Positions 40,364 to 60,552 of a stretch of 64,000 bases of DNA are shown in pieces. Under the pieces are notes generated by a model that did no database searches, was not told where the DNA came from, and saw nothing but the letters and a program-made list of their open reading frames with translations. The DNA comes from Pseudonocardia sp. SCN 73-27 (lineage in GTDB: Bacteria; Actinomycetota; Actinomycetes; Mycobacteriales; Pseudonocardiaceae): the NCBI GenBank assembly GCA_001725415.1, contig MEGH01000002.1:62001-126000 (forward strand). Reading direction: 5' to 3'. Numbering within the stretch: position 1 is the first letter of the stretch; every line of letters begins with the position of its first letter. The translations under genes and the position numbers were made by a program.

Positions 40364-41020
40364 TCAGGTCGTCGAGGCTTGACAGCGGGCGTCCTTGAGA
40401 AGCACTTCTGCTGCTTCGCGAGCTCGGGCAGCAGCCTGGTCGTCGTTCTCGATGAAAGCGGTGATGATCGCGCCCTCCATCAGCAGCATCAGGTGTGCCG
40501 AGAGGGATTGACAACGCTCGGGCGGCACGTCGGAGATCGTGGCGAGGTCGTGAAGCCACTTCCGGGTCTTGCCCTTGTGTCGTAGGACGGCGATCTGGGC
40601 GTCCGGCATGGTCGATCCGACTTCAACAGAAGCGTTCTGGTAGGCGCAACCACGGAATATCGAGCTCTTGAACCACAGGTCGAGGACGTCGAACGGGGCA
40701 AGGGCGGGCACGACTCCCTGATCGACGTACTCCGCGAGGCGACGTTCGAACCAGCTGAAGTGGCTCGCCTCGACCCTGTTCAGGGCGGCGCCGACCAGCG
40801 CTTCCTTGGAGTTGAAGTGTGCGTAGAGAGTCGGTTTGGTGACCCCGACGTGGGCGGCGACGTCTTCCATCGACACGGTCGCGATGCCGTGTCGATAGAA
40901 GAAGTCGGCCGCTTTGATCAGGATCCGTTCCCGGGTCTCCTCGCGGCGTCGGTTGCGGGCCGCGTAGTTCGGCGTCGCTGTCTCGGCCTGTCCGGAGCTG
41001 GTCGGATGGGATGCCATCAT
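40364..41020 (-). CDS. TetR family transcriptional regulator
   Basis: A 218-residue repressor. The HTH is at about 27-75 (ETRERILIKAADFFYRHGIA, VAAHVGVTKPTLYAHFNSKE), and the C-terminal ligand domain contains FRGCAYQNASVEVG (a frequent TetR C-terminal motif with a Cys). It is the last gene of the - strand operon with an alcohol dehydrogenase and two acyl-CoA-synthetase-like genes. The mirrored palindromes at 45215 and 45553 are its likely operators. ATG at 41020 or 41017. Confidence 0.93.
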   Translation of the reverse strand: MMASHPTSSGQAETATPNYAARNRRREETRERILIKAADFFYRHGIATVSMEDVAAHVGVTKPTLYAHFNSKEALVGAALNRVEASHFSWFERRLAEYVDQGVVPALAPFDVLDLWFKSSIFRGCAYQNASVEVGSTMPDAQIAVLRHKGKTRKWLHDLATISDVPPERCQSLSAHLMLLMEGAIITAFIENDDQAAARAREAAEVLLKDARCQASTT

Positions 41021-46703: not shown

Positions 46704-48044
46704 TCAGGTCGAGACCGTCGGCCGCTCATTGGTTCGCTGCAGCTCGTCCGGCCGTCGGCCGACGACTGCCACGCCTGCTATGGCGACCGCCGCGACGACG
46801 AGAGGCACCACGAACAGCCCGAACAGGCCGCGGCCGGACCACCCGGCGTCGACGAGCGCCCCGGCGACGAGCGGGGCGACGATCGCGCCGACCCGTCCGA
46901 CGGCGAGCGCCCAGCCCACGGCCGTCGTCCGCACGGACACGGGGTACAGGCTCGGCGCGACGGCGTACAGCAGCGCGCCGTTGGCGTTCACCAGGAGCCC
47001 GACGAGCACGGCGGCGGCCATCGTCGCGGCGAGGCTGCCGAGCGCCATCGTCATCAGCCCGAACGCGACCGCGCCCAGCAGGAGGGCCACCACGGCCAGC
47101 TTGTTCACCGCGACCCGCAGGGCGAGCGCGGCGACGATCAGGACCCCGACGACGCCGCCGGCGTTGAGCAGGATCCCGCCGCTGATCCCCTGCTGCGTGG
47201 ACAGTCCGCTCTGCTCCAGCAGCCGCGGGGTCCAGCTCCCGGCGAAGTAGGTCGCGGCGAACAGGCAGAAGAACGCCATCCAGAGCAGGACGCTGCGGAT
47301 CCCGTTGCGCCCGCGGAGCACGTTCCGCCCGACCCCGGTCGCGGCCCGGTCGACGGGGGCCGGCAGCGCCTCCAGCGGGGCGATGCGCATTCGGGCGAGG
47401 ATCGTGTTCATCCTGGCGAGCGCCCCGGCCGGGCGGCGGGCGGCGAGGTAGTCGATCGACTCGGGCAGCACCGCGGCCATGGCCGAGACGGTGACCAGGC
47501 TGAGCACGGCGCCGAGCAGGAACGTCGCCCGCCACCCGTACCCGGCGGTGACCAGCGCGGCGATCGTGCCGCCGACCACGCCGCCGAGCGGGAGCCCGAC
47601 CGCGAAGAACGCCGTCGAGGTCCCGCGGCCGCGCCTGCTGGAGTACTCCGCGATGATCACCGGGAGGCTGGCGATCACGCCGCCGACGCCGATCCCGGTG
47701 AGTACCCGGCAGAGGCCGAGCTGGACGCCGCCCGTCGTGAGCGCGGACAGGAACATCCCGACCGTGGCCACGGCCAGGCAGGCCAGCGTCAGCGGGCGCC
47801 GGCCGATCCGGTCCGCCAGCGGCGCGACCAGGGCGGAACCGAGCGCCATGCCGATCAGGCCGCTGCTCAGCAGCAGCCCGACCTGCGATGCGGTGAGGTG
47901 CCACTCGGCGGCGACCCCGGACGCGGCGAAGGCCATCACGAGGATGTCGAAGCCCTCGACGACGTTCATCACCAGGCACAGCGCCACGACCATGACCTGG
48001 AACCTCGTCATGGGCGATCTGTCGATCACGTCGGGAATGTTCAT
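46704..48044 (-). CDS. MFS transporter, aromatic acid:H+ symporter (AAHS) type
   Basis: A 446-residue permease with about 12 hydrophobic segments. The motifs are GFDILVMAFAASGVA in helix 1, PLADRIGRRPLTL between helices 2 and 3, and RVLTGIGVGGVIASLPVIIA in helix 4. This pattern is typical of PcaK/MhpT-like aromatic acid importers. It is the last gene of the aromatic cluster, and a 17-bp palindrome lies 84 bp upstream, so it has its own control point. Confidence 0.9.
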   Translation of the reverse strand: MNIPDVIDRSPMTRFQVMVVALCLVMNVVEGFDILVMAFAASGVAAEWHLTASQVGLLLSSGLIGMALGSALVAPLADRIGRRPLTLACLAVATVGMFLSALTTGGVQLGLCRVLTGIGVGGVIASLPVIIAEYSSRRGRGTSTAFFAVGLPLGGVVGGTIAALVTAGYGWRATFLLGAVLSLVTVSAMAAVLPESIDYLAARRPAGALARMNTILARMRIAPLEALPAPVDRAATGVGRNVLRGRNGIRSVLLWMAFFCLFAATYFAGSWTPRLLEQSGLSTQQGISGGILLNAGGVVGVLIVAALALRVAVNKLAVVALLLGAVAFGLMTMALGSLAATMAAAVLVGLLVNANGALLYAVAPSLYPVSVRTTAVGWALAVGRVGAIVAPLVAGALVDAGWSGRGLFGLFVVPLVVAAVAIAGVAVVGRRPDELQRTNERPTVST

Positions 48045-48127
48045 GGACGCACCTTCGGGTCTCTCGGGGGGTGTGCCGGATTCGGCCGCGTGAGCATCGG
48101 GCGGATCGAAGATCGTCGGGGCAGTCC

Positions 48128-48144
48128 GGTCCGTGCAGTGGACC
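48128..48144. promoter_or_regulatory. 17-bp palindrome GGTCC-N7-GGACC, candidate IclR site (1)
   Basis: GGTCCGTGCAGTGGACC lies between the stop of the aldehyde dehydrogenase and the start of the transporter. The same 5+7+5 pattern with AGT before the second arm recurs at 52235 (one arm base changed), 59335 and 60015. Assignment to the IclR regulator at 53177 is inference. Confidence 0.65.
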
Positions 48145-48158
48145 GCCGTCCGAGCCGG

Positions 48159-49682
48159 TCAGCCGGGCAGCACCAGGCTCCCGTCGACCCGGCGGGGCAC
48201 GCCGGCGGCCGGGACGTCGCGCAGCTCGTCCGGGAGCACGTCGGCCGGAGCGTCCTGCCAGGTCAGCGGGCGCAGGAACCGGCGGATCGCGGTCGCCCCG
48301 ACGGAGGTGTGCAGGCTGTTCGTCGCCGGCCACGGCCCACCGTGGTGTTGCGCCCAGCTCACGGCGACACCCGTCGGGTAGCCGTTGAAGACGAGGCGGC
48401 CGGCGGTCCCGGCGAGGACGCCGGCCAGTTCGAGGACCGGCTCTCCGGCACCGGTGTGCACGGTCGCGGTGAGCGACGCGGGGAGCCGGCGCAGGACGGC
48501 CGTCAGCTCCGCGGGCCCGGCGTAGCGGACGACGACGGCGGCCGGCCCGAAGTACTCCGCGAAGGCCTCGTCCGGGAGGTCGTCCGCCCGGGCGGTGACG
48601 AGCAGCGGCGCCACCGTGAACCCCGCGTCCGCCGGGTCACCCGCGGCGACGGCCCTGACGCCGGGGGCGCACGCGAGCCGCGCGGTGTCGTCGACGTAGG
48701 ACCGGTGGATGCGTTCGTTGAGCAGCGGGACGACGCGCGCGCCGCCGAGAGCGGCTGCCGCCGCGGCCACGACGGCGTCGCCCGCCTGCCCGTCCGGGAC
48801 GAGGACGAAGCCCGGCTTGGTGCAGAGCTGGCCCGCCGACCCCGTGACCGAACCGACGAGACCCGCGCCGATCTCGCCGGCCCGTTCGCGCGCGGCCGCC
48901 TCGGTCACGACCAGGGCGTTCAGACTGGAGAGCTCGCCGTAGAACGGGATGGGCTCCGGGCGGGCGTCGATGATGTCGAGCAGGGCCCGCCCACCGGAGA
49001 GCGACCCGGTGAAGCCGACGGCCCGGGTCGCCGGGTGCGCGACGAGCTCCTGCCCGGCCCGGCGCCCGAACACCAGGCCGAGTGTCCCGCGTGGCAGCCC
49101 CGCGGCCTCCAGCGCCCCGGTCAGGACCTCGTGCACGAGCCGCGAGGTACCCGGGTGCGACCCGTGCCCCTTGACCACCACCGGGTTGCCGGCGGCCAGC
49201 GCCGACGCGGTGTCCCCGCCCGGCACGGAGAACGCGAGCGGGAAGTTGCTGGCACCGAAGACGGCGACGGGGCCGATCGGGACGAGCATCCGGCGCAGGT
49301 CCGGGCGCGGCCCCATCGGCGTCGGGCCGGCGTGGTCGATCGCGGCCTCGAGGTAGCCGCCGTCGGTCACGACGTCGGCGAAGAACCGGAGCTGGAACGC
49401 CGTGCGGGTCAGCTCGCCGTTCAACCGGGTGTCGCCCAGCGCGGTCTCGGTGTCGGCGATCTCGACGATCGGCGCGCGGGCGGCCTCCAGCGCGTCGGCG
49501 AGCGCGACGAGCACGCGGGCCCGTCCGGCCCGGTCCAGTGCGGCGAGGGCCGGTGCCGCGTCGGCGGCGGCCCCGACCACGTCGCGGACGTGGTCGTCGG
49601 TGCTCTCGACCACCTCCGGGGGCAGGTCGAGCCCGGTGCGGGGATCGGTGCCGGTGACGGGACGGTGTTCGGTGGTGGTCAC
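48159..49682 (-). CDS. Aldehyde dehydrogenase (NADP), ketoglutarate-semialdehyde type
   Basis: A 507-residue ALDH. The branch-specific segment FGASNFPLAFSVPGGDTASA and VKGHGSHPGTS match alpha-ketoglutaric-semialdehyde (2,5-dioxovalerate) dehydrogenases. The catalytic Cys is in GSAGQLCTKPGF and the base in YGELSSLNALVV. In this cluster it more likely oxidises a ring-fission semialdehyde or a related intermediate. It is transcribed 45 bp after the ferredoxin gene. Confidence 0.87.
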   Translation of the reverse strand: MTTTEHRPVTGTDPRTGLDLPPEVVESTDDHVRDVVGAAADAAPALAALDRAGRARVLVALADALEAARAPIVEIADTETALGDTRLNGELTRTAFQLRFFADVVTDGGYLEAAIDHAGPTPMGPRPDLRRMLVPIGPVAVFGASNFPLAFSVPGGDTASALAAGNPVVVKGHGSHPGTSRLVHEVLTGALEAAGLPRGTLGLVFGRRAGQELVAHPATRAVGFTGSLSGGRALLDIIDARPEPIPFYGELSSLNALVVTEAAARERAGEIGAGLVGSVTGSAGQLCTKPGFVLVPDGQAGDAVVAAAAAALGGARVVPLLNERIHRSYVDDTARLACAPGVRAVAAGDPADAGFTVAPLLVTARADDLPDEAFAEYFGPAAVVVRYAGPAELTAVLRRLPASLTATVHTGAGEPVLELAGVLAGTAGRLVFNGYPTGVAVSWAQHHGGPWPATNSLHTSVGATAIRRFLRPLTWQDAPADVLPDELRDVPAAGVPRRVDGSLVLPG

Positions 49683-49727
49683 GGGAGTCCTCCAGGGGGA
49701 TCGGCGCGGTGACGGTCGGCGCTTCGG

Positions 49728-50069
49728 TCAGCGCGGCGGCAGCGCGGCGACGGTCTCGGTGTCCACGCCGACCGGGCCGAGGTGCGTGGCGCCGCCCGGG
49801 GTGCCCAGCGGCGCGTCGCGGCCGGCCAGGACGACGTCGAAGAACGACGCGTTGTCCGTGGTGTTCCAGGCGGCGTCGGTGCCCGCGATCGTGCGGTCGG
49901 CGACGGCCGCCGCGGTCGGGCAGGCCTGCTCGCACGCCCCGCAGTCGATGCACTCGACCGGGTTGATGTACATCTTCCGATCGCCCTCGTAGATGCAGTC
50001 GACCGGACATTCCTCGAGGCAGGACCGGTCGAGGACGTCGACGCAGGCGTCGGTGACGACGTAGGTCAT
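49728..50069 (-). CDS. fdxA: 7Fe ferredoxin ([3Fe-4S][4Fe-4S])
   Basis: A 113-residue FdxA-type ferredoxin. Cysteines at 9, 17, 21 and 25 and at 40, 43, 46 and 50 fit the two-cluster pattern (C-x7-C-x3-CP and CxxCxxCxxxCP). The typical IYEGDRKMYINPVECIDCG is present. The C-terminal half after residue 60 is Thr/Gly-rich and longer than that of a standalone FdxA. With the reductase at 50087 it should carry electrons to the Rieske oxygenase. [3Fe-4S]-type ferredoxins serve actinobacterial phthalate- and phenanthrene-type dioxygenases. Confidence 0.92.
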   Translation of the reverse strand: MTYVVTDACVDVLDRSCLEECPVDCIYEGDRKMYINPVECIDCGACEQACPTAAAVADRTIAGTDAAWNTTDNASFFDVVLAGRDAPLGTPGGATHLGPVGVDTETVAALPPR

Positions 50070-50086
50070 GGCGGTGCCCCTCTCGC

Positions 50087-51091
50087 TCAGATGAGTACGC
50101 CGGCCTCGGCGACGAGGGCGTCCGTCGAGTGGCCGGGGAAGGTCGAGGCGGTGGGGTCGAGGCGGACCGCGGCGTGGTTGACGGCCGTGGCCGCCTCACC
50201 GAAGCCGACAGCGATCAGCGGAACCCGCCCGGGATGGGTGCAGACGTCGCCCGCGGCGAAGACGCCGGGCCGCGACGTTCGCATCGCGGTGTCGACGACG
50301 ATCTTGCGGTCGGCGACGTCGAAGCCCCAGCCGAGCAGCGGGCCCGGGTTGGCGACGAAGCCCAGCGCGGCGACCACGCTGTCGCATCCGACCTCGGTGA
50401 GCCGCCCGGTGGCGATGTTGCGCAGGACGGCCCCGCTCACCCGCGTGTCCCCGCGCAGCTGCTCGACGACCGTCTCGGTGTGCACGCGGGCCGGTCCGGC
50501 GAGCACCTGGTCGACGGTGTGCCGGTGCGCGCGGAAGCTGTCGCGGCGGTGCACCAGCGTGACCTGGGCCGAGTGCTGCAGGGCGTCGGCCCAGTCGAGG
50601 GCCGAGTCCCCGCCCCCGACGACGAGCACGCGCCGGCCGGCGAGCTCGGCGGGGTCGTGGACGAAGTAGGTCAGGCCACGGCCGAGGAAGTCCTCACCGC
50701 ACGGCAGCGTGCGGGGTGCGAAGGTCCCGATCCCCGCCGTCACCACGACGGCGCCCGCTTCCAGCGTGCCGCCGTCGGCGAACCCGATCTCGAAGCGCCC
50801 GCCGGGGCGGTCGTCGAGCCGGGCCGCCTGCCGGCCGAGCAGCATCTCGGTGCGGAACGGCCGGACCTGCTCGACGAGCGAGCGCACCAGGTCCCGCCCC
50901 TTGACCGCGGGGAACCCGGCGACGTCACGGACGAGCTTCTCGGGGTAGAGCGCCGAGATCTGGCCGCCCGGTTCGGGCAGGGCGTCGACCAGTGCGACCG
51001 ACAACCCGCGCATCCCGGCGTAGAACGCGGCGAACAGCCCGGTGGGCCCCGCGCCGATCACCGCGACGTCGGCCACCGCTGCGGCGCTCAC
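50087..51091 (-). CDS. Ferredoxin--NADP reductase, thioredoxin-reductase-like
   Basis: A 334-residue FAD protein. GAGPTGLFAAFYAGMRG (13-29) binds FAD, PEPGGQISALYPEK is typical of the FNR2 branch, VVGGGDSALDWADAL binds NADPH, and GVFAAGDVCTHPG closes the FAD site. No CxxC is present, consistent with a ferredoxin reductase. It is adjacent to the ferredoxin (17 bp) and overlaps the extradiol gene by 4 bp. It completes the electron chain. Confidence 0.9.
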   Translation of the reverse strand: MSAAAVADVAVIGAGPTGLFAAFYAGMRGLSVALVDALPEPGGQISALYPEKLVRDVAGFPAVKGRDLVRSLVEQVRPFRTEMLLGRQAARLDDRPGGRFEIGFADGGTLEAGAVVVTAGIGTFAPRTLPCGEDFLGRGLTYFVHDPAELAGRRVLVVGGGDSALDWADALQHSAQVTLVHRRDSFRAHRHTVDQVLAGPARVHTETVVEQLRGDTRVSGAVLRNIATGRLTEVGCDSVVAALGFVANPGPLLGWGFDVADRKIVVDTAMRTSRPGVFAAGDVCTHPGRVPLIAVGFGEAATAVNHAAVRLDPTASTFPGHSTDALVAEAGVLI

Positions 51092-52161
51092 CGGGCCGCA
51101 CCGTCATAGATCGCGAAGACCTTGTTGGACACGAAGATGTTCGACGCGGCGAACGTCGTCCAGCTGGGCGCGAGACCCAGCTCGCGCATCGCCCCGACCA
51201 GCGCCCACCAGTTCAGCAGCTCCTGCTGGCCCGCCTTCTCGGCGTCCTCGAGGGTCGTGTTCTCCCAGACGGAGTGGTCCCCGGTCACCAGCGCGTCGTA
51301 CATGCGCTCGTCGGCCGCCGAGTCCGGGAACAGCCGGAACGTCGAGTCGACCAGGAAGCTGTGCGACCAGCTCGAGCTCGCGACGAGTGCCACCCGGTAC
51401 GGGCTGTCGGCGCAGATCCGGGCGACGGCCGCACCGACGTCCATGATCCGCGACGGGCTCGGCGACGGGGGGTCGAGCTCGCGCTCGACGCCGAGCGGGG
51501 AGATGTTGCCCTGGTAGCTGATCACCCTGCGGCCGTAGCAGTTCAGCGGGAAGGCGACGACGGGGTGGTCGAACCCCTGGCGGTCGTAGTCCAGGTAGAG
51601 CACGGTGTTGAGGAACGCGTGGGCGAAGCCCGGGTGGTGCAGCGGCTCGTAGGCGTAGGGCACGTCGACGCCGCAGTTCATCAGTCCCTCGACGAGGTGC
51701 CTGGCGAACGGCCGGTGGCCGCGGATGGTGCGCGCGGTGTCCTCGTCCTCGCCCCAGACGTTCGGCGTGCCCTTCATGTTCGAGGACTCGTCGGCGTGCC
51801 GCCACGGATGGACGACCTTGTCCTCGTAGGCCAGTACGGCGTACGGCGGCACGAGGTCCTCGCGGAAGTTCTCGTACTGGTCGTCGCCCCAGATCAGCAC
51901 GACGTCGGGGCGGAACTCGTCGAGCGCCGCACGGGTGCGGCGGAAGCCCTCCAGCAGCGCCGCGCGATGGGCCTTGCCCGCCGCGACACCCTCGTCGTCC
52001 GCCCACTCCCGGCGGGCCCGCTCCGGCCAGGACGCCGGGTCGCGGAGCTCGGCGGGCAGCCGCGGATCGGCCAGCGCGCCGCGGAAGACCCTGGACAGGT
52101 TGTCGTCCGTGCCGCTCAGGGGTGGGTAGTGCGTGACCCCGAGTCCCAGGATCTCGGCCAT
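51088..52161 (-). CDS. LigB-superfamily extradiol ring-cleavage dioxygenase
   Basis: A 357-residue class III extradiol dioxygenase subunit B-like protein. It has GVTHYPPLSGTDDNL (N-terminal His of the metal site), DVVLIWGDDQYENFRED, YEPLHHPGFAHAFL and SSSWSHSFLVD. It is longer than MhpB and lacks a LigA-like partner. It would cleave the dihydroxylated (or aminophenol-like) product of the Rieske system. It is the first gene of the 46-52 kb - strand unit and shares a 133-bp divergent region with the hydratase at 52295. Confidence 0.83.
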   Translation of the reverse strand: MAEILGLGVTHYPPLSGTDDNLSRVFRGALADPRLPAELRDPASWPERARREWADDEGVAAGKAHRAALLEGFRRTRAALDEFRPDVVLIWGDDQYENFREDLVPPYAVLAYEDKVVHPWRHADESSNMKGTPNVWGEDEDTARTIRGHRPFARHLVEGLMNCGVDVPYAYEPLHHPGFAHAFLNTVLYLDYDRQGFDHPVVAFPLNCYGRRVISYQGNISPLGVERELDPPSPSPSRIMDVGAAVARICADSPYRVALVASSSWSHSFLVDSTFRLFPDSAADERMYDALVTGDHSVWENTTLEDAEKAGQQELLNWWALVGAMRELGLAPSWTTFAASNIFVSNKVFAIYDGAAR

Positions 52162-52234
52162 GGGTGCTCCTCCTCGTCGTCGAGCGGGTTGTGCCGTCGA
52201 GTCTCGGAAGCCCGGGCGGCCGCGACCACGACTC

Positions 52235-52251
52235 GGACCGGCCAGTGGACC
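52235..52251. promoter_or_regulatory. 17-bp palindrome, candidate IclR site (2)
   Basis: GGACCGGCCAGTGGACC lies in the 133-bp region between the divergent extradiol and hydratase genes. It fits the consensus except for one base in the first arm (GGACC for GGTCC). Confidence 0.6.
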
Positions 52252-52294
52252 GGCGGGTTACCGCACCGGACCGCCACGCCGGACGATCGGAGCC

Positions 52295-53128
52295 GTGACC
52301 GACCTGATCGAGACCCAGGCGCCCGACACCGCGCGACTCGCCCACGTCCTGCACCGCGCGCGAACCGGGCACGCCCTGCTCGACGCGACCGTCGAGACCG
52401 ATGCGCTGTCGCTGGACGACGCGTACGCGGTGCAGGACCGGCTGACGGCGCTGCGGCTCGACGAGGGCCGCTGCCACGTCGGGTGGAAGCTCGGCTACAC
52501 CTCGGCGGTGATGCGCCGGCAGATGGGCGTGTCCGTCCCCAACCACGGCCCGTTGCTCGACGACATGGTGCGCCACGACGGGGCCACCGCGGCAGGGTTC
52601 CTGCACCCGCGCGTCGAGCCCGAGATCGGCATCGTCCTGGCCCGGGACCTGTCGGGGCCCGGGTTGCTGATCACCGAGGTCGCGGACGCGGTCGCCGAGG
52701 TCCGCGCCTGTCTGGAGATCGTCGACTCGATCTGGCTGGACTACCGGTTCTCCGCCGAGCAGAACACCGCGGACGGCTCGTCGGCGGCCGGGGTCGTCCT
52801 CGGGCCCGCCCTGGACGTCGACCCGCTCCGCTGCCACCGGGTGCCGGTCGAGCTCACCGAGGACGACGTCCCGCTGGCCACCGCCGTCTCGGCCGCCGCG
52901 AGCGGGCACCCGCTGCACGGGGTCGCCTGGCTGGCCGCGGAGCTCGCGGCGCGCGGCCGCCACCTCCAGGCGGGCGAGCTGGTGATCACCGGCGGGCTCA
53001 CCGCCGCCACACCGCTGCGGGCCGGGCGGGTCCTGTCGGCGCGGTTCGGGGGGCGCACCACCGTCTCGGTGCGCCGGCCGGCGGGCGAGCCCGACGCCGC
53101 GCTCGGTGCGCCGACGGCCGGCCGCTGA
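52295..53128 (+). CDS. 2-keto-4-pentenoate hydratase family protein
   Basis: A 277-residue fumarylacetoacetase-fold enzyme. Signs are GWKLGYTSAVMRRQMGVSVP, HPRVEPEIGIVLARDLSGPG with the metal-binding Glu residues, and the C-terminal ITGGLTAATPL. It is one of three such paralogues here, the others being at 57717 and 58484, and the only one on the + strand. Together they could act as oxalocrotonate decarboxylase, hydratase and a third, unassigned enzyme. GTG start. Confidence 0.88.
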   Translation: MTDLIETQAPDTARLAHVLHRARTGHALLDATVETDALSLDDAYAVQDRLTALRLDEGRCHVGWKLGYTSAVMRRQMGVSVPNHGPLLDDMVRHDGATAAGFLHPRVEPEIGIVLARDLSGPGLLITEVADAVAEVRACLEIVDSIWLDYRFSAEQNTADGSSAAGVVLGPALDVDPLRCHRVPVELTEDDVPLATAVSAAASGHPLHGVAWLAAELAARGRHLQAGELVITGGLTAATPLRAGRVLSARFGGRTTVSVRRPAGEPDAALGAPTAGR

Positions 53129-53176
53129 CGCCGACCCCCGCCCCCGACCCCCGACCGCCGACGCGAAGCGGTCCGG

Positions 53177-53968
53177 TCAGCGGCCGAGCTGCGGGTGGCC
53201 GAGACCGCGGCTGATCGCGAGTGCGGCGGTACGGACCGCCGCCTCCAGCCGCACCGGCTGCAGGCGCTGGGCCGGGCCGGTGACCGAGAGCCCCGCGACG
53301 GCACGGTGCCCGTCGCGACCCACGTAGCTCTCGACGACGATCGCCGCCGCCACGCAGACGATGCCCCGGGTCCCCTCCTCGCGGTCGTGGGCCAGACCGG
53401 TCTCGCGGATCCGGTCGAGCTCGCGGCGGAACCGGGCGGGGTCGGTGATCGTGGTGCTCGTCCGCGCGGGCATCGGCGCGCTGACCACCCGGTCCACGGC
53501 GCTCTCGTCGCTGAAGGCGAGTATCGCCTTCCCGAGCCCCGTGCAGTACGCGGGTAGCCGCGCCCCGACGGCCGACGGTGCGGGGACGCTGTGCCGGCCG
53601 GTGAGCTTCTCGATGTAGATGATCTCGGTGCCGTCGAGCACCCCGAGCTGCACGATCTCCCCGGTCGCGACGAGCAGGTCGGACATGAACGGCAGCGCCG
53701 TGGCCCGCAGCCGTCGTGAGGCCGGCACGTGCTGGCCGAGCTCGAACAGGTGCAGCCCCAGCCGGTAGCCGTAGCCGCCGCGCTCCAGCATCCGATGGGC
53801 CACGAGGTCCGTGGCGAGCCGGTGCACCGTGGCCTTCTTCAGGCCGGTCCGGCGGGCGAGCTCGCTGAGCCCGACCTCGCCGGGGGACTCGGCGACCGCG
53901 TCGAGGATGAGGAGCAGCCGGTCGCCCACGGACCGCTGCTCACCGGCCTCGTCGGCGCTGATGCGCAT
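53177..53968 (-). CDS. IclR family transcriptional regulator
   Basis: A 263-residue regulator. The winged HTH (VGLSELARRTGLKKATVHRL, ATDLVAHRMLER) is followed by an effector domain (IVQLGVLDGTEIIYIEKLTG, LPAYCTGLGKAILAF). The Cys-Thr-Gly-x-Gly-Lys is typical. ATG 53968 is chosen, since the longer frame reaches into the Rieske gene. It lies inside the aromatic cluster and is the probable controller of the four palindromes at 48128, 52235, 59335 and 60015. Confidence 0.94.
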   Translation of the reverse strand: MRISADEAGEQRSVGDRLLLILDAVAESPGEVGLSELARRTGLKKATVHRLATDLVAHRMLERGGYGYRLGLHLFELGQHVPASRRLRATALPFMSDLLVATGEIVQLGVLDGTEIIYIEKLTGRHSVPAPSAVGARLPAYCTGLGKAILAFSDESAVDRVVSAPMPARTSTTITDPARFRRELDRIRETGLAHDREEGTRGIVCVAAAIVVESYVGRDGHRAVAGLSVTGPAQRLQPVRLEAAVRTAALAISRGLGHPQLGR

Positions 53969-53978
53969 GCGACGGCGC

Positions 53979-55268
53979 TCAGCGCGAGCCGAGCAGGTCC
54001 CGCCAGCGACGCCAGAACGCACGCTGCTGGATCTCGTCGGCCGCCGTGAACGGCTCGTCCGTCGCCTCCTTGTGGATCCCCCGCGAGATGTCCGACCACG
54101 GTGACTCCGCCGCGGCGGCGAAGCCCTCCTGGCAGGACTCGCAGGCCTCCATGTCGTCCGGCGTCGCCAGCCCACCCGGGCCCTGGAAGGTGACGTAGGA
54201 GTCCAGCCTGCGCTCGCGCACGGACTCCGGCTCGCCCTTCGTCGCGAGCGTCCACTGCGCGATGACGGTGCGACCCGCCGAGGTCGGGGTGATGGTGCGG
54301 ATCACGACGCCCATGATGTCGTTGATGACCAGGTTCGGGAAGACGAGCAGGTTGCGGTCCGTCGTCGCGATCCGCCGGGCGCGGTCCGCGTCGAACCGTT
54401 CCTCCAGCTCGGTCCTCCGTGCCTCGACATAGGCGCGGTTCTCCTCGCCCATCGACGGGGTCCAGCGCGCCACCGGCCGTGCCCACGGTCCCTCGACGGT
54501 GATCACCGCATGTCCGTCACCGAGATCGCGGGCCTCGGTGGGCCTGCGCGGATCGAGGTAGGAGTCCTCGGTCGACTTGAGGTAGTCGAAGTAGGTGCGG
54601 TGCAACGGGATCAGGTGGTAGCCGTCGAGGCTGTTCTCGACGAAGAGCTTCCAGTTCGCCTCCATCGAGTACTCGTGCATCCCGTCGACCACCTCCATCT
54701 CCGGAGACTGGTCGGCCACCAGGTCGAGGTACTCGCGCGCCCCACCGAGATAGGTGGGCAGGTCGACGGCGTCGGGGTCGAAGCAGCAGAACACGAAGTC
54801 GCGGTAGACGTCCACGCGGGGTGGGGAGCTCAGCCCGAACCGCGACCGGTCGAACCCCGGCCCGTACCCGTCGGCGTCGGGCAGCCCGGTGAGCCGACCG
54901 TCGTTGGCGTAGGTCCAGGCGTGGTAGAAGCACGACATGCCGCGGGCGTTGCCGTCGGGGACCCGGCACAGCTGGGCGCCGCGGTGCCGGCAGGCGTTGA
55001 GGAAGACCCGGACCTCGCCGTCGGTCCCGCGCCAGAGGATCAACGGCCGTCCGGCCACGGTGCGGGTGCGGAAGTCGCCGGGCGCGGCGATCTCCGAGGT
55101 GTGGCCGACGTAGAGCCAGCACCGGTCGAAGACGGCCTGCTGCTCCTCGGCGAACACGGCCTCGTCGACCATGGCGGACCGGTTGACCCTGAAGAAGCCG
55201 TCGGCGGGGCGGTCGTCGACGAGCCCGGCGGTGGGGGTGGTGGCGGCGGGTTCGAGCAGTTCGGTCAT
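53979..55268 (-). CDS. Aromatic ring-hydroxylating dioxygenase, alpha subunit
   Basis: A 429-residue Rieske oxygenase. The [2Fe-2S] ligands are C93, H95, C113 and H116 (C-x-H-x17-C-x2-H), and the mononuclear iron site has D215, H218 and H223 in NSLDGYHLIPLHRTY. The size is normal for the large subunit. It adds O2 across the ring, or demethylates, with electrons from the ferredoxin. The beta subunit is at 56279, separated by the amidohydrolase gene, an unusual alpha-hydrolase-beta order. Confidence 0.94.
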   Translation of the reverse strand: MTELLEPAATTPTAGLVDDRPADGFFRVNRSAMVDEAVFAEEQQAVFDRCWLYVGHTSEIAAPGDFRTRTVAGRPLILWRGTDGEVRVFLNACRHRGAQLCRVPDGNARGMSCFYHAWTYANDGRLTGLPDADGYGPGFDRSRFGLSSPPRVDVYRDFVFCCFDPDAVDLPTYLGGAREYLDLVADQSPEMEVVDGMHEYSMEANWKLFVENSLDGYHLIPLHRTYFDYLKSTEDSYLDPRRPTEARDLGDGHAVITVEGPWARPVARWTPSMGEENRAYVEARRTELEERFDADRARRIATTDRNLLVFPNLVINDIMGVVIRTITPTSAGRTVIAQWTLATKGEPESVRERRLDSYVTFQGPGGLATPDDMEACESCQEGFAAAAESPWSDISRGIHKEATDEPFTAADEIQQRAFWRRWRDLLGSR

Positions 55269-55284
55269 GGCTCCAGCTCCTTCG

Positions 55285-56268
55285 CTAGGAGGCCGGCAGG
55301 CCCAGCAGGGCGGCCGGGTTGTGCGTGCGGACGGCGACGGCGAGGCCTGCCGGCAGCAGGGGGTCGTCGAGGAAGGACACGGGATCCACGGGCATGAACG
55401 GGTGGTCGGTGCCCAGCACGATGCGGTCGGCGCCGACGACGTCGACGAGGAGCCGCAGCAGGCCGGCGTCGAACAGCAGCGGGTCGTACCAGAGCCGGCG
55501 CGCGGACTCGACGGCCGACTCCGGCATCAGCTCCCGCAGCGCGGGCGTCGTGTCCCGCAGGAAGTCGATCCGGGGCAGCTCGGTGACCAGCGAGCCGGCG
55601 CCGTGGCTCGCGAGCAGCCGGAGGCGGGGTCTGGCGGCGATCGCGCCGGTCGCGATCAGCCCACCGATCGCGGTGCCGATGCTGGCCGGGAACAGCACCC
55701 CGTTGGCGGCCATCGGGTGCGGGTAGTCCGCCACCCCCGGGCCACCGACGGCGTGGACGAAGACCACCAGCCCGAGCCGCTCGGCCTCGTCGAGGAACCC
55801 GGCCCAGGCCGCGGTGTGCAGGGCGGCCGTCGGCGGGTCGGCGGGCAGCTCGACGCCGACGAGCCCCGCGCGGGCGACGTCGGTCAGCAGGGCCGCGGCC
55901 GCGTCGGGGTCGCGCAGCGGCACCACGCCGAGCCCCGCGTAGAAGCCGCCGTGGCGCGGAAGCTCACCGGCGAGCCAGTCGTTGAAGGCGCGCGCGTAGT
56001 CGGCGCCGTCGGCCGAGGGAGCCCAAGGTGCGAACAGCTCCGGCATCGCCGACAGCAGCTGCCCGGTCACGCCGGCCGCCTCCGCGGCGTCGCGGCGGGC
56101 GTCGAGGTCCCACGCCACCCGCCGGACCGTCCGGAAGACCCTGCCCGCCACGAGCACGTCGCCGGTGTCGGGTCCCGGTTCGAGCCGGGCCCACCGCGGG
56201 TCGGCCGTCGCGAGGCGGTCGAGGAACGGGGTCGCGGGCGGTACCACGTGGGTGTGCAGGTCGTGCAC
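55285..56268 (-). CDS. Amidohydrolase family (ACMSD-like) decarboxylase
   Basis: A 327-residue TIM-barrel metalloenzyme. HxH at 5-7 (MHDLHTH), VVFVHAVGG, LLASHGAGSLV and VLGTDHPFMP give the zinc ligands of the ACMSD/gamma-resorcylate decarboxylase branch. It would decarboxylate an aromatic acid or a carboxymuconate semialdehyde. It sits between the alpha and beta subunits of the oxygenase (16 and 10 bp). Confidence 0.88.
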   Translation of the reverse strand: MHDLHTHVVPPATPFLDRLATADPRWARLEPGPDTGDVLVAGRVFRTVRRVAWDLDARRDAAEAAGVTGQLLSAMPELFAPWAPSADGADYARAFNDWLAGELPRHGGFYAGLGVVPLRDPDAAAALLTDVARAGLVGVELPADPPTAALHTAAWAGFLDEAERLGLVVFVHAVGGPGVADYPHPMAANGVLFPASIGTAIGGLIATGAIAARPRLRLLASHGAGSLVTELPRIDFLRDTTPALRELMPESAVESARRLWYDPLLFDAGLLRLLVDVVGADRIVLGTDHPFMPVDPVSFLDDPLLPAGLAVAVRTHNPAALLGLPAS

Positions 56269-56278
56269 GACGACGCCT

Positions 56279-56791
56279 CTACAGGATGATCGAGACGGTT
56301 CCGCCCGCCTCGACGATCCCGTGGTCGAGCGTCGCGACCCGCTCGCGGACGAGGAAGCCCGCCCCGTCGGGCACCAGGACGAACCGGTAGGTCCCCAGGA
56401 AGTGGTCGAGCTTGCCGAGCCGGGTGCGCATGACGTGGAAGTTCGCCGCGACGGTGACCTCCCCCGCGTCGCCGACCGGGCCGTCCAGCACCCGGACGTT
56501 GGTCACGAACCGGCGGGTGCGCGAGCGCGGGCTCTCCGCGTGCGCGTGCTTGCTCTTGAGCCGGGCCACCCGCCCGCCGAGGCGCGTGTGGTCGTCGTGG
56601 ATCACCTGCAGCGTGTGCCGCGGGTCGAGGTGGTCGGAGCCGGGCGCGGGGACGCGGTACTCGACGTCGGGGTGCATGAGCGCGAACCAGTCGTCGAGCC
56701 GCCACTCGTCGAGCAGCGCGGCCTCGCGGTAGAGGAACTGTTCCACCTCGTGGTGGGAGGCCGCCGTGGTCGGGGTGAGCGGCGCGGTCAT
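56279..56791 (-). CDS. Aromatic ring-hydroxylating dioxygenase, beta subunit
   Basis: A 170-residue NTF2-like small subunit. The usual pattern is EVEQFLYREAALLDEWRLDD, WFALMHPDVEYRVP, and RTRRFVTNVRV, FHVMRTRLGKLDHFLGTYR. The ATG at 56791 overlaps the stop of the hydrolase gene. It forms the structural partner of the alpha subunit at 53979. Confidence 0.93.
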   Translation of the reverse strand: MTAPLTPTTAASHHEVEQFLYREAALLDEWRLDDWFALMHPDVEYRVPAPGSDHLDPRHTLQVIHDDHTRLGGRVARLKSKHAHAESPRSRTRRFVTNVRVLDGPVGDAGEVTVAANFHVMRTRLGKLDHFLGTYRFVLVPDGAGFLVRERVATLDHGIVEAGGTVSIIL

Positions 56792-57492
56792 CGGGCCTCC
56801 AGGGTCAGCAGGACCTCGGCCAGCCCCTCCGGGTCGGCGAGGAAGGGGCTGTGCGAACCGTCCAGCCAGGTCACCTCGGTCCCGAGCCGCGCGCGGGCGG
56901 CCTCCGCGGCCCAGGCGCCGGAGACCGCCCGGTCGGACCGGCAGCCGACGTAGTGCATCGGTACGTCCGGAAAGGCCGTCACCGGAGTCGGTTCGGCGAC
57001 GGGCGTGGGCGACTGCGGGCGCAGCCGTGCCGCGGCCGCGGCGGCGACCTGCGGCGGGCAGTCGTGGTAGAAGAGCTCGGTCGCGACGTCGGCGGGCCAG
57101 ACGGTCCGTCCCTGGTCGTCGCGGCCCTGCTTCGGCAGCCCTTCGGCGTAGAACCAGTCCGCCATCGGGCGTTCGGCGCCGAGCTGGTCGCGCCACGAGC
57201 GACCTGGGTCCGGGAGCAGCGAGGCGAGGAACACCAGTGCGCCGACCCGGACCCGGTCGGGCACGAGCGGGATCGCGAGCCCGGCCAGCGAGTGGCCCAC
57301 GACGACGTCGCGGCCCGGCTCGCGGACCGCGCGGGCGATCACGTCGGCGTACACGGCCGCGCCGGCGCCGATCTCGTCGGACGGCAGGGCGACGGCGGTG
57401 GCGTCGTGCGCGCGCCGGCGCAGCGCCGCGACCTGGTCGGCCCAGCACCACGGCCCGTGCCAGGCGCCGTGCACGAGGACGAAGTGCGTCAT
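56788..57492 (-). CDS. Alpha/beta hydrolase (MES/HNL-like)
   Basis: A 234-residue hydrolase. It starts THFVLVHGAWHGPWCW, has the elbow VVGHSLAG, the acid region in GCRSDRAVSG and His in LDGSHSPFLADP. This resembles salicylate-methyl-esterase/hydroxynitrile-lyase-like enzymes. In the cluster it may hydrolyse an ester or an enol-lactone intermediate. It overlaps the beta subunit start and the tautomerase stop by 4 bp each. Confidence 0.87.
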   Translation of the reverse strand: MTHFVLVHGAWHGPWCWADQVAALRRRAHDATAVALPSDEIGAGAAVYADVIARAVREPGRDVVVGHSLAGLAIPLVPDRVRVGALVFLASLLPDPGRSWRDQLGAERPMADWFYAEGLPKQGRDDQGRTVWPADVATELFYHDCPPQVAAAAAARLRPQSPTPVAEPTPVTAFPDVPMHYVGCRSDRAVSGAWAAEAARARLGTEVTWLDGSHSPFLADPEGLAEVLLTLEAR

Positions 57493-57704
57493 GGCCGGCT
57501 CTGCGGTACGGCGGCGGCCTGCTTCTCGGCGAGGGTCCGCCCGCCGACGAGGACCTCCGTCGCCGGGACCTCGACGAGCCAGACGCGCACGGACGCCTCC
57601 GGCACCGAGATCGCCTCCGCGGCCGCGGCGGACACCGCCCGGATCAGCGCGTCCTTCTGCTCCGCGGTCCGGCCGGCACCGAGGTTGACCTGGATGAACG
57701 GCAT
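57489..57704 (-). CDS. 4-oxalocrotonate tautomerase family protein
   Basis: A 71-residue tautomerase. Pro2 follows the initiator Met (the catalytic Pro1 after processing), then PFIQVNLGAGRTAEQKDALI. The second half VRVWLVEVPATEVLVGGRT is typical, and length is slightly above the standard 62. It isomerises 2-hydroxymuconate to the oxo form in meta pathways. Confidence 0.92.
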   Translation of the reverse strand: MPFIQVNLGAGRTAEQKDALIRAVSAAAAEAISVPEASVRVWLVEVPATEVLVGGRTLAEKQAAAVPQSRP

Positions 57705-57716
57705 GGGGGTTCTCCT

Positions 57717-58487
57717 CTACTCCGCGCCGAGGGTGACGCTGCCCAGCCCGCTGAGCGTGGCGGTGACGGTGCTGCCGGGCAGCAGGGGGACGGGGGCGGT
57801 GAGGCCGCCCGAGAGCACGACCCAGCCCGCCTCGAGGCGGCGGTCGGTGGCCACGAGCTGGTTGGCCATGTAGGCGACGGCCGCTGCCGGGTGTCCCATC
57901 ACGGCGGCACCGGCGGCGGACTCCACCACCCGGCCGTTGACCTCCAGCACACAGCCGGTCAGCGCGAGGTCGCCCCTGGGCTCGACCAGGTCGTCCCCGA
58001 GCGCGAACACGGCGGAGGACGCGTTGTCGGCGATCGCGTCGAGGTGGGTGAACCTGAACCCTTCGTACCGGCTGTCGATCACGTCGAGCGCGGGGCAGAC
58101 GTAGCGGGTCGCGGCCAGCACGTCGGCGACCGTGACGCCGGGGCCCTCCAGGGGCTCCCCGAGCACGAACGCGATCTCGGGCTCGACGCGCGGGTGGATC
58201 AGCTCCTCGAGCGAGAGCCGGCTGCCGGAGTTGCGGGCCATGCCGCTGGTGACGAGCCCGTACAGCGGACGGTCCACGCCCATGGCGATCTGCTTCGCCC
58301 TGCTCGTGAGGCCGAGCTTGCCGCCCAGGAGCCGCTCACCGCGGCCCAGCCGCAGCCCGACCAGGCCGCGCTGCACCTCGTAGGCGACAGCCAGGTCGGT
58401 CAGCCCGTCGCCGCTCAGCGGGGCGGTCGGCGCCGTGCCGGTGGCGGCGTCGTCGAGCCGTGCGGCCCATGTCGCGACATCGGTCAT
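57717..58487 (-). CDS. 4-oxalocrotonate decarboxylase / 2-oxopentenoate hydratase family
   Basis: A 256-residue FAH-fold protein. GGKLGLTSRAKQIAMGVDRP, HPRVEPEIAFVLGEPLEGPG and VLSGGLTAPVPL are diagnostic. It is in tandem with a related gene (4-bp overlap). One of the pair probably decarboxylates 4-oxalocrotonate and the other hydrates 2-oxopent-4-enoate; which is which cannot be told. Confidence 0.9.
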   Translation of the reverse strand: MTDVATWAARLDDAATGTAPTAPLSGDGLTDLAVAYEVQRGLVGLRLGRGERLLGGKLGLTSRAKQIAMGVDRPLYGLVTSGMARNSGSRLSLEELIHPRVEPEIAFVLGEPLEGPGVTVADVLAATRYVCPALDVIDSRYEGFRFTHLDAIADNASSAVFALGDDLVEPRGDLALTGCVLEVNGRVVESAAGAAVMGHPAAAVAYMANQLVATDRRLEAGWVVLSGGLTAPVPLLPGSTVTATLSGLGSVTLGAE

Positions 58488-59293
58488 GCCGCACTCCCCA
58501 CGGCCGCGCTGAAGGTGACGCCCACGTGGCCGAGGTGCTCGAAGTCGGCCCGCACGGTGTCCCCGGGGCGCATGTCCACCGCGCGCGTACAGGTGCCGGG
58601 CATGATCAGGTCGCCGGTGCGGAGCATCCCGCCGCCGGGCGCGATCGTGTTGGCGAGCCAGGCGACGGCCTGGGCCGGGTTGCCCAGCACCGCCCCGCTC
58701 GCACCGGTCTCGACGATCTCGCCGTTGCGCCGCAGGACCACCCCGATCAGCCGCGGGTCCAGCCCGGCGATCGGGGTCCGGACCCCGCCGAGCACGACCC
58801 GCGCCGACGACGCGTTGTCGGCGACGGTGTCCACGATCCCGATCTGCCAGTCCTCGATCCGGGAATCGATGATCTCCAGGGCCGGGAGCACGAACGCGGT
58901 CGCCGCGAGGACGTCGGCCACGGTCACCCCGGGCCCCTGCAACGGCCGGTCCAGGACGAACGCCAGCTCGGGCTCGACGCGAGGGGCGATCAGCGCGTCG
59001 ACCGGCAGCGGCTCGCCCTCGGGGTGGAACATGGACCCGAGCAGGTGGCCGAAGTCCGGGCGGTCGACGCCGAACTGCTGCTGCATGACCCGGGCGGTCA
59101 GGCCGACCTTGTGACCCCGCACGGAGTCGCCCTGCGCGACGCGCAGCCGGACGCCCTCGAGCTGGATCCGGTAGGCGTCGTCGACGTCGGCGCCCGGGTG
59201 CCGACGGCTGATCGGCTCCACCGGGACCGAGCGCTGCTCCGCGTCCCACAGCTGCGCGGCCAGCCGCCGGACATCCTCTTCGGTGAGTGACAT
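58484..59293 (-). CDS. 2-oxopent-4-enoate hydratase family protein
   Basis: A 269-residue FAH-fold enzyme. GHKVGLTARVMQQQFGVDRP, APRVEPELAFVLDRPLQGPG and LIMPGTCTRAVDMRPGDTV are present. It is the first gene of the 56.8-59.3 kb - strand unit. ATG 59293 is chosen over the longer frame. The palindrome at 59335 is only 42 bp upstream, overlapping where the promoter should be. Confidence 0.9.
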   Translation of the reverse strand: MSLTEEDVRRLAAQLWDAEQRSVPVEPISRRHPGADVDDAYRIQLEGVRLRVAQGDSVRGHKVGLTARVMQQQFGVDRPDFGHLLGSMFHPEGEPLPVDALIAPRVEPELAFVLDRPLQGPGVTVADVLAATAFVLPALEIIDSRIEDWQIGIVDTVADNASSARVVLGGVRTPIAGLDPRLIGVVLRRNGEIVETGASGAVLGNPAQAVAWLANTIAPGGGMLRTGDLIMPGTCTRAVDMRPGDTVRADFEHLGHVGVTFSAAVGSAA

Positions 59294-59334
59294 GGCCCCA
59301 GCGTGGGAGCAGCGTGGGCGCCGCAGTAGCGATC

Positions 59335-59351
59335 GGTCCGTCGAGTGGACC
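59335..59351. promoter_or_regulatory. 17-bp palindrome GGTCC-N7-GGACC, candidate IclR site (3)
   Basis: GGTCCGTCGAGTGGACC lies 42 bp before the start of the hydratase at 58484-59293, in the 75-bp gap before the DUF421 gene. It is placed to block or activate the hydratase-decarboxylase-tautomerase unit. Confidence 0.65.
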
Positions 59352-59368
59352 GGCCGGCTCACGGGGTG

Positions 59369-59902
59369 TCAGGCCGGCCGGTCGGGCGCCTGCGCGCGCA
59401 CGTCCGTGAGCAGCGCCGGGTCGAGTCCCGACGACGCCCGGACGACGCTGATCCGCCCGCTGCGCTCGAGGACGACCCACCCGACCTCCCGCGGGTCCCC
59501 GATGCCGGCGAGCCGCAGCCGCTGGCGGATCTCGTCCTCGGTCACCCGGGCCCGGCGCATCGCCTCGTGCCGCATCCCGCCGGCGTCCATGAGCAGCACG
59601 GCGTCGCGGTCGAGGAGGCGCCGGACGGCACGGCTGCGCCGGCAGCGACCCAGCAGCCGCTGGACGGCGAACAGCGTCGTCAGCGCGACGACCCCGGTGC
59701 CGAGGGTCGGCACCTCGAGCAGCGTCGTCCGGCCGAGCACCGCGCCGGCTGCGCCGACGCAGGCCAGCTCGTACCCCGACAGCGCAACAAGACTCCGCTG
59801 GCCCGAGATCCGTACCAGCGCGACGAACAGTAGATACATCGCAACCGTTGCGACGACGACCCGCACTGCTGCCAGCGGGTCGATTCCGAGCTCACCGAAC
59901 AC
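59369..59902 (-). CDS. DUF421 / YetF-like membrane protein
   Basis: A 177-residue protein with three N-terminal membrane helices (VVVATVAMYLLFVALVRISG; LSGYELACVGAAGAVLG; VALTTLFAVQRLLG) and a soluble tail. The tail has the family's LMDAGGMRHEAMRRARVTED. GTG 59902 has GGAGG six bases upstream, and earlier in-frame codons lack support. The usual RISGKRSL reads RISGQRSLVAL. Function of the family is unclear. It is not obviously part of the aromatic pathway. Confidence 0.8.
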   Translation of the reverse strand: MFGELGIDPLAAVRVVVATVAMYLLFVALVRISGQRSLVALSGYELACVGAAGAVLGRTTLLEVPTLGTGVVALTTLFAVQRLLGRCRRSRAVRRLLDRDAVLLMDAGGMRHEAMRRARVTEDEIRQRLRLAGIGDPREVGWVVLERSGRISVVRASSGLDPALLTDVRAQAPDRPA

Positions 59903-60552
59903 TGCATTCCTCCGCAGGAGCACGGCAGCCGCTCGAACGCCCGGCGCGGCCGACCCCGGATCCGTCCAGGTTTGTCTCGATGCTGGCGACACAACGTTCG
60001 CCCGACGGGCCGGCGGTCCCTGGAGTGGACCACAACGAGGTGGCGTTCGTCGTGGCACGGCTGTGGCTTCGACGAGCCTGTCTTCGCTCTGGTCCGTGTG
60101 TCTGGCGCGCAGCGTGGCGACGGCCTGGTTGCCGGGAGACCGCCGGCCGTCGACGTCGGTCGGGTGAGCGGCGACGACGGTGCCCAGCTCATCGGTCGGG
60201 ACGATCGTCCGGGCCACGCGTGCGAGGTTGCCGCCGCTGCGCTCGGAGGCTGTACGCGAGGAGTTCGTGAGCTTGTGCGAGGTCAGCAGCGTCGCTCATG
60301 CGTAGCCTCCGGCGCCGGAGTGGTCGTGGCTGTGGCCCTCACGATGAGACCCAGGATTCGTGGCTCCTGCAGCTGGGACGGATCGAGCTCGACGCACTGG
60401 ACTGCATGATCGACGCGGACAGGTAGTCGTCGCGCAGCGCCGCGAACGGCCCGGTACCCGGCGGCGCGCGGCAGGTCGTCGCCGGTGCGTGACCTGTCGC
60501 TGGGCCTGTGGGCGTCGCGGTGCCGAGGAGCCGGTCGCACTAGTCTCGTCGA
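59903..60552. other. Intergenic region upstream of the second SpoIIE phosphatase
   Basis: Region of 650 bp with no supported gene; open frames on both strands lack recognised features. It carries the palindrome at 60015 and must hold the promoters of the divergent DUF421 and phosphatase genes. Confidence 0.6.
60015..60031. promoter_or_regulatory. 17-bp palindrome GGTCC-N7-GGACC, candidate IclR site (4)
   Basis: GGTCCCTGGAGTGGACC lies 113 bp upstream of the DUF421 start and 522 bp upstream of the phosphatase. It matches sites 1 and 3 in both arms and the AGT. It is outside the catabolic genes, so the regulator may reach further than the pathway. Confidence 0.6.

Follow-up and report, generated by a model that had tools for sequence, protein, structure and literature searches.

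A 17-bp palindrome as the predicted operator of an IclR regulator in an aromatic-degradation gene cluster of Pseudonocardia

We studied a stretch of 64,000 nucleotides (the window; positions 62001-126000 of contig C2 in G000, the 6.95 Mb genome of Pseudonocardia sp. SCN 73-27) in which a palindrome of 17 bp recurs in and beside a cluster of genes for aromatic degradation. From the letters of the DNA we predict that four such sites serve as operators for an IclR-family regulator, the product of the gene at 53177-53968, and that this regulator controls the cluster, a reading to which we give a probability of about 0.88. The sites and the regulator gene are the following:

48128..48144, minus strand: operator 1, GGTCCACTGCACGGACC in gene direction; centre 92 nt upstream of the ATG of the MFS transporter gene
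52235..52251, minus strand: operator 2, GGTCCACTGGCCGGTCC; centred between two divergent genes, 82 nt ahead of LigB and 52 nt ahead of the hydratase gene
59335..59351, minus strand: operator 3, GGTCCACTCGACGGACC; centre 50 nt ahead of the gene that opens a predicted eight-gene operon, of which iclR is the last
60015..60031, minus strand: operator 4, GGTCCACTCCAGGGACC; centre 121 nt upstream of the DUF421 gene and 530 nt from a divergent SpoIIE-domain gene
53177..53968, minus strand: iclR, 263 amino acids, with HTH_IclR and IclR_C domains and the recognition helix KKATVHRL; last gene of predicted operon A

A scan of the window finds GGTCCNNNNAGTGGACC exactly at 48128, 59335 and 60015, and with one mismatch, in the GGACC arm, at 52235. 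This confirms the four palindromes listed in an earlier note on this DNA, which had also called all of them intergenic; the gene calls, made with a codon-usage gene caller written for this analysis, uphold this. The IclR gene that the note had placed amid the sites at 53177 is there, but its start is most likely 53968. In the whole genome the exact GGTCCNNNNAGTGGACC occurs four times, three of them in 12 kb of the window and the fourth on contig C13, inside the coding gene pgi (phosphoglucose isomerase); the exact reversed control occurs twice. For three exact copies in 12 kb the Poisson probability is roughly 7e-9 to 5e-8, and it rises to some 4e-6 to 3e-5 when one allows for 580 stretches of that size. 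Looser matches behave differently. With up to two mismatches the window has 6 matches for 4.17 in shuffled sequences (29 of 100 shuffles reach 6), and GGTCC-N7-GGACC with up to one mismatch is found 15 times for 10.07, neither being above chance; genome-wide, the bare palindrome is found at 38 places and its reversed control at 46. This means that the claim of an excess over chance, made in the earlier note, stands for the exact copies (three of the four in the genome) and falls for matches with one or two mismatches.

The protein encoded at 53177-53968 belongs to the IclR family, scoring 54.3 bits with Pfam HTH_IclR (cut-off 22) and 138.3 bits with IclR_C (cut-off 24). Pairs of dimers are usual in this family, and a dimer of the window IclR, or such a pair, would bind GGTCCACT-NNN-CGGWCC through the winged helix-turn-helix, the helix KKATVHRL reading the GGTCC half-sites. 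Once bound, it would control the MFS transporter gene, the LigB operon together with its divergent hydratase gene, and the Rieske operon including iclR itself (autoregulation); the DUF421 gene would probably be controlled as well. In the IclR of Pseudonocardia dioxanivorans CB1190 (L084, complement of 9784-10572) the helix is KATVHRP instead of KATVHRL, unlike the other aligned window-type orthologs.

The sites can be compared with the operator consensus of IclR group 1, GKTYCRYW3-4RYGRAMC, as given in the main text of Suvorova and Gelfand (2021, PMC8222616); sites of this group are there said to lie mostly at -20 to -80, upstream of the operons of the regulator itself and of its neighbours. 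When W3 is read as NNN, the window agrees with this consensus without any mismatch only at 48128 and 59335, while 60015 has one mismatch (as one of four such places in the window) and 52235 has two. The centres are at -50, -82 and -92 for the operons and the transporter and at -121 for DUF421, which is in keeping with the positions given for the group. A logo of 34 collected sites, chosen for matching the motif, gives in gene direction the consensus GGTCCACTSNNCGGWCC.

We then compared seven clusters from three genera: that of the window and those of CB1190 (G169; its LigB protein is 98% identical to that of the window), Pseudonocardia N23, the metagenome-assembled genome (MAG) Pseudonocardia 73-21, G113, G109 and Kutzneria CA-103260. 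Operators 2 and 3, ahead of LigB and of operon A, are kept in all seven, the window included. Operator 2 always has its proximal arm of T type (GGTCC in gene direction), with one distal base changed in G109 and Kutzneria; operator 3 is always of A type, six clusters having exactly the motif of the earlier note and MAG 73-21 one changed distal base. Operator 1 is also present in CB1190, N23 (with one mismatch) and 73-21. Operator 4 is kept in CB1190 and N23 despite diverged flanks; no counterpart of it was found upstream of DUF421 in 73-21. Near operator 3 there is a second copy 53 nt away in G113 and, with a mismatch, 28 nt away in G109. In G113 we also noticed GGACCGGCCAATGGACC (G113:C1:5020824, L155:7325), an intergenic sequence upstream of a zinc alcohol dehydrogenase gene, some 6 kb past the orthologous cluster.

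The form of operator 2 bears on another reading, in which the palindrome works at the level of RNA by folding into a hairpin, be it an attenuator or a stability element. A 5-bp inverted repeat with a loop of 7 nt could indeed be drawn as such a hairpin; but the arms of operator 2 (GGACC-N7-GGACC, and GGACC-N7-GAACC in two clusters) are unable to pair fully and are nevertheless kept in seven clusters of seven, the letters ACT of the loop are themselves conserved, and there is no T-run terminator at the sites. We hold this reading to be highly improbable. It was dropped, together with that of a promoter element, on account of the non-pairing arms and of an empty scan for promoters and terminators.

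The association of the motif with iclR extends beyond these clusters. Orthologs of the window IclR (E <= 1e-70) are rare, being found in at least 4 of 62 Pseudonocardia genomes, at least 4 of 248 genomes of a mycobacterial genus sample, at least 2 of 295 of a Streptomyces genus sample, at least 3 of 397 of an order sample and at least 4 of 394 of a class sample; these counts include the sample centres and are lower bounds, because scoring covered only some of the first-look candidates. Twelve ortholog loci were searched with the pattern of the earlier note, GGWCCNNNNAGTGGACC, using 100 shuffles and 300 permuted motifs as controls and leaving out the window and CB1190 (the source of the motif), L105 (27% identical) and the second copies from the same genomes (L099, L101, L103, L121-L123). 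Exact copies number 14, in 8 of the 12 loci, against an average of 0.03 for the shuffles and of 0.03 for the permuted motifs (at most 1 in either). With up to one mismatch there are 29 rows at 26 places, in 11 of the 12 loci, against 1.7 (at most 6) for the shuffles and 1.5 (at most 13) for the permuted motifs. Six control loci with LigB paralogs have 0 exact copies and 2 one-mismatch places.

Because the Pseudonocardia and Kutzneria loci have a common origin with that of the window, more independent evidence comes from the mycobacteria and Streptomyces. In four mycobacterial loci the IclR is 72-73% identical to ours, and its gene is preceded by one for an alpha/beta hydrolase; with 14 other window proteins as queries, the only match nearby is a distant hydrolase (30%) in G1287. 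There, CGGTCCAYTGGGCGGACC is the sole long conserved block of the intergenic region upstream of the hydrolase and IclR genes. It stands directly upstream of the hydrolase gene in three of the loci; in G1287 the two are separated by a second alpha/beta hydrolase gene. Streptomyces sulfonofaciens (IclR 58% identical) has a rearranged cluster with four sites, each in the gap ahead of a transcription unit. In whole genomes, the share of exact copies of GGWCCGNNNAGTGGACC that lie in the cluster or beside iclR is 3 of 3 in G113, 1 of 1 in each of G109, G385 and G1287, 4 of 5 in CB1190 and 1 of 2 in G142 (the tally covers the genomes listed; G000, G273, G269, G818 and G1009 are not among them). Hence the IclR regulon supposed in the earlier note gains support from the company that the motif keeps with iclR across genera, and from the group 1 consensus, which the note did not know.

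These results also dispose of the idea that the palindrome is a chance occurrence or a dispersed genomic repeat. Loose matches are, it is true, as common as in shuffles; yet the exact copies cluster in the window and, in other genera, turn up again at orthologous positions and next to iclR, and for the exact motif chance is refuted by the search of the 12 loci together with the conservation of the mycobacterial intergenic regions. We give this explanation practically no credit.

A number of observations nevertheless weigh against our prediction, and they are gathered here. Operator 2 departs from the group 1 consensus at two positions, and positions 9-11, where that consensus as published has W3, are mostly G or C in the 34 sites (the window has 70.65% G+C). 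A scan around the sites found no sigma-70-like promoter. With up to one mismatch, the 17-mer gives 20 rows (19 places) in the genome against 29 rows for the reversed control, thus no enrichment. Four of these places are the window sites; among the other 15, nine are coding and six are counted as intergenic (L007, L010, L011, L014, L018 and L019, with sparse gene calls around the last four), two of the six adjoining other IclR genes. The caller had marked L010 as coding; we reassigned it because its copy in CB1190 is intergenic and because the acetaldehyde dehydrogenase model begins past the site. Matches of this kind elsewhere in the genome are mostly noise, and so the bias of position that the earlier note expected from a genome scan appears in the exact matches, three of which out of four head transcription units, but not in the looser ones. 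Elsewhere, the reversed control equals or exceeds the motif at one mismatch in most of the whole genomes tallied; G1248 and G676 have no exact GGWCCGNNNAGTGGACC in their whole genomes, and in G1394 (M. sherrisii) the sole exact copy is elsewhere, the site adjacent to IclR having one mismatch. The IclR of G676 (50% identical, helix PKATVHRL) has only GTCTCGTTGAGTGGACC. Within the family, the exact GGTCCNNNNAGTGGACC is present in 79 of 249 genomes, and 30 of these loci were inspected: 22 are coding and 8 intergenic, and none of the 30 has a window-like IclR (threshold E <= 1e-8) nearer than 1.5 kb. Finally, two other IclR proteins of the window's genome have similar operators, so that a given site may be bound by one paralog or by another. 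Six of the eight intergenic loci just mentioned (L055-L057, L059, L060 and L064, at 1501-1517) have GGTCCGTGGAGTGGACC in identical letters, in two other genera of the family.

Exact copies with no window-like IclR nearby mean that the motif alone is no proof of control by IclR. They could speak for a different regulator, such as a TetR-family protein encoded nearby, which would read the palindrome in its place. A TetR gene is found in the window at 40364-41020, and TetR-like matches in the vicinity of the Streptomyces, Kutzneria, G109 and CB1190 clusters count against IclR too. However, the matches to the window TetR are of just 25-30%, in 4 of 12 loci and in none of the mycobacteria or G113; among the genes annotated at the motif loci, IclR is the only regulator known to be common to them, and the motif fits the published consensus of IclR group 1. 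A regulator other than IclR thus seems to us very unlikely.

The genes around the predicted IclR operators form operon-like runs on the minus strand, from which we infer the limits of two operons:

53177..59293, minus strand: operon A, eight genes, the last being iclR
58484-59293 and 57717-58487, minus strand: two FAA-fold hydratase/decarboxylase-like genes of operon A, so named for their resemblance to the gene at 52295
57489-57704, minus strand: tautomerase gene of operon A
56788-57492, minus strand: alpha/beta hydrolase gene of operon A
56279-56791, minus strand: gene for a ring-hydroxylating beta subunit, operon A
55285-56268, minus strand: amidohydrolase gene of operon A
53979-55268, minus strand: gene for a Rieske alpha subunit, operon A
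48159..52161, minus strand: operon B, four genes
51088-52161, minus strand: gene for a LigB-type extradiol dioxygenase, operon B
50087-51091, minus strand: gene for a thioredoxin-reductase-like FAD reductase, operon B
49728-50069, minus strand: gene for an FdxA ferredoxin, operon B
48159-49682, minus strand: aldehyde dehydrogenase gene of operon B
46704..48044, minus strand: MFS transporter gene, related to the aromatic acid:H+ symporter family (TIGR00895, 322 bits, below the cut-off of 419 bits)
52295..53128, plus strand: 2-oxo acid hydratase/decarboxylase-like gene, transcribed away from LigB on the other side of operator 2
59369..59902, minus strand: DUF421 (YetF C-terminal domain) membrane-protein gene, behind operator 4

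These enzymes would carry out dioxygenation, extradiol cleavage and hydratase steps in the breakdown of an aromatic acid. Only three gaps inside the cluster exceed 70 bp (48045-48158, 52162-52294 and 59294-59368); each has one site and the shorter gaps have none. The earlier note had put three of the sites in or upstream of promoter regions of the aromatic cluster, which agrees with these three gaps; operator 4, at 60015, lies in a gap of 650 bp upstream of the DUF421 gene, which borders operon A but is not a catabolic gene. Between operator 2 and the start of LigB, at 52198-52209, CGAGTCTCGGAA is identical in five aligned clusters and is possibly a promoter element or a second binding site. 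The LigB-type dioxygenase (51088-52161) has no relative of solved structure at E <= 0.001 in a phmmer search. An FdxA-type ferredoxin and a thioredoxin-reductase-like reductase (49728-51091) within a Rieske dioxygenase cluster seem an unusual electron supply for such an enzyme.

As to the sign of the control, IclR is most likely a repressor, released by the aromatic substrate or by an intermediate of the pathway, a preference of modest strength. For the catabolic and transport genes the distance from site to start codon is 50-92 nt; repression is preferred because operator 3 is so near its start codon; this closest site could overlap a core promoter. The same sites could serve IclR as an activator which, bound upstream of the promoter, would recruit the polymerase in the presence of an aromatic ligand, as PobR and PcaU do. 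The family comprises repressors, activators and dual regulators (PMC8222616, main text), centres at -82 and -92 would suit activation, and the motif is asymmetric and similarly oriented, the RYT triplet (positions 6-8) being on the distal side in 13 of the 15 sites that have a single downstream gene. But many of these 15 sites are related by descent, so that the tally amounts to few events; the site of operon A is centred merely 50 nt from the ATG; and by eye no third half-site is seen on the flanks of the palindromes, of the kind that the same paper reports for the three-box sites of PcaU and PobR. Activation is therefore a serious possibility, if the less probable one; as no sigma-70-like promoter was found, the layout alone cannot settle between the two.

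The other IclR genes with related palindromes deserve a description. At C16:80708 (L166:8709), unlinked to the window, GTTCCGTTGAGTGGACC separates the gene of a second IclR (a protein 50% identical, with the helix KATVHRL) from genes of DmpF and DmpG type, that is, for an acylating acetaldehyde dehydrogenase and a 4-hydroxy-2-oxovalerate aldolase. DmpF and DmpG perform the terminal steps of meta-cleavage, and no genes for these steps were seen among the annotated genes of the window cluster. At C4:106541 (L167:9542), GTTCCGCTCAGTGGACC is flanked on one side by the gene of a third IclR (39%) and on the other by hydratase/decarboxylase-like and tautomerase genes; two genes for catechol 2,3-dioxygenase are in the neighbourhood. 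Both palindromes are at the same places in CB1190 (the counterpart of the C4 one being in L159). One more sequence, the intergenic GGTCCGTGGCGCGGACC at G000:C4:24448 (L090:9449), agrees with the published group 1 consensus without mismatch; it stands some 220 bp ahead of the gene for an HpaB-type hydroxylase and near a LigB paralog, and the 20 kb around it hold no IclR match at E <= 1e-6.

We surveyed the second IclR in 30 loci of 44 genomes with the gene, taking the best group 1 match in the 290 bp or so upstream. When the dehydrogenase gene is adjacent and the helix is TVHRL or TIHRL (four cases: G000, G292, G273 and G169), the site is always GTTCC...GGACC. In the 16 other loci with an adjacent dehydrogenase gene (TAHRL; TALRL in G259), 15 right halves end in GGAAC, GGAAT or GAAAC and none in GGACC, G269 having no clear site. 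Ten loci have no adjacent dehydrogenase match; nine of them, including G283 with its TVHRL helix, are without a clear site, and G288 has a GGAAC site. The four GGACC cases form one close clade, so the switch of helix and operator counts as one event. Hints of a parallel pairing come from G676, from the lineage of the window and from L105 (contig CANJOT010000074.1 of a Burkholderiales MAG). The two distant IclR genes (27%) of L105 have the helices GLKKATVHR and GLEKATVHR, and the only two perfect GGTCC-N7-GGACC in its 12.3 kb, at L105:3089 and L105:9849, are each just ahead of an IclR gene, for 0.04 expected.

It could be that a helix of KATVHR type specifies GGTCC/GGACC half-sites across distant IclR groups, that in the DmpFG-linked IclR the change from TAHRL to TVHRL or TIHRL moved the operator from GTTTC/GGAAC to GTTCC/GGACC, and that two or three paralogs cross-talk, wiring the unlinked upper cluster of the window, the DmpFG operon at C16:80708 and the catechol meta-cleavage cluster at C4:106541 into one network. 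We put this forward tentatively and consider it rather unlikely as a whole. The window IclR was not found in G292, which has the GGACC site of the second IclR, and in G269 the window cluster is present but that site is missing; from these two patterns the GGACC site would belong first to its local IclR, cross-talk being hypothetical. If it did occur, paralogs with common half-sites might keep the upper and the lower part of a single pathway in step. In any case the DmpFG-linked paralog offers a natural series of pairs of helix and operator on how IclR proteins choose their sites.

What we propose for the window would be IclR control of an ordinary kind with an unusually well conserved operator, a set of group 1 IclR operators with the half-site GGTCC. 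In the open-licence PMC literature our searches found neither this motif nor any IclR operator of Pseudonocardia, nor a regulator for an aromatic-degradation cluster of this type; the main text of PMC8222616 has neither "GGTCC" nor "Pseudonocardia". The analysis gives a predicted operator, a regulator and a list of targets for a cluster found in CB1190 and relatives, so that the inducer and the substrate can be sought with a simple reporter.

Among known regulators, PcaR, PcaU and PobR resemble that of the window in being of the IclR family and linked to aromatic catabolism, and the solved Pca regulon regulator 8eju matches the window IclR at 3e-18. The window IclR differs from them in falling below the cut-off of their family (TIGR02431, 126 bits for 284.75), and inspection of its sites by eye showed no three-box arrangement of the kind published for PcaU and PobR. 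BhcR (NF045644) is its best NCBIfam match, yet at 145 bits it is far below the cut-off of 350. With the operators of IclR group 1, as they are described in the main text of PMC8222616, the window sites share the 17-bp palindrome of odd length, the half-sites GKTYCRY/RYGRAMC and the position upstream of genes for aromatic catabolism and transport. According to the same text aromatic genes are over-represented in the TGT-11-ACA subgroup, in agreement with the genes found here. The window sites differ in having GGT...ACC as outer triplets, and not TGT/ACA, GTT/AAC or WTT/AAW, a GC-rich centre in place of W3, and a nearly strict ACT after the distal arm.

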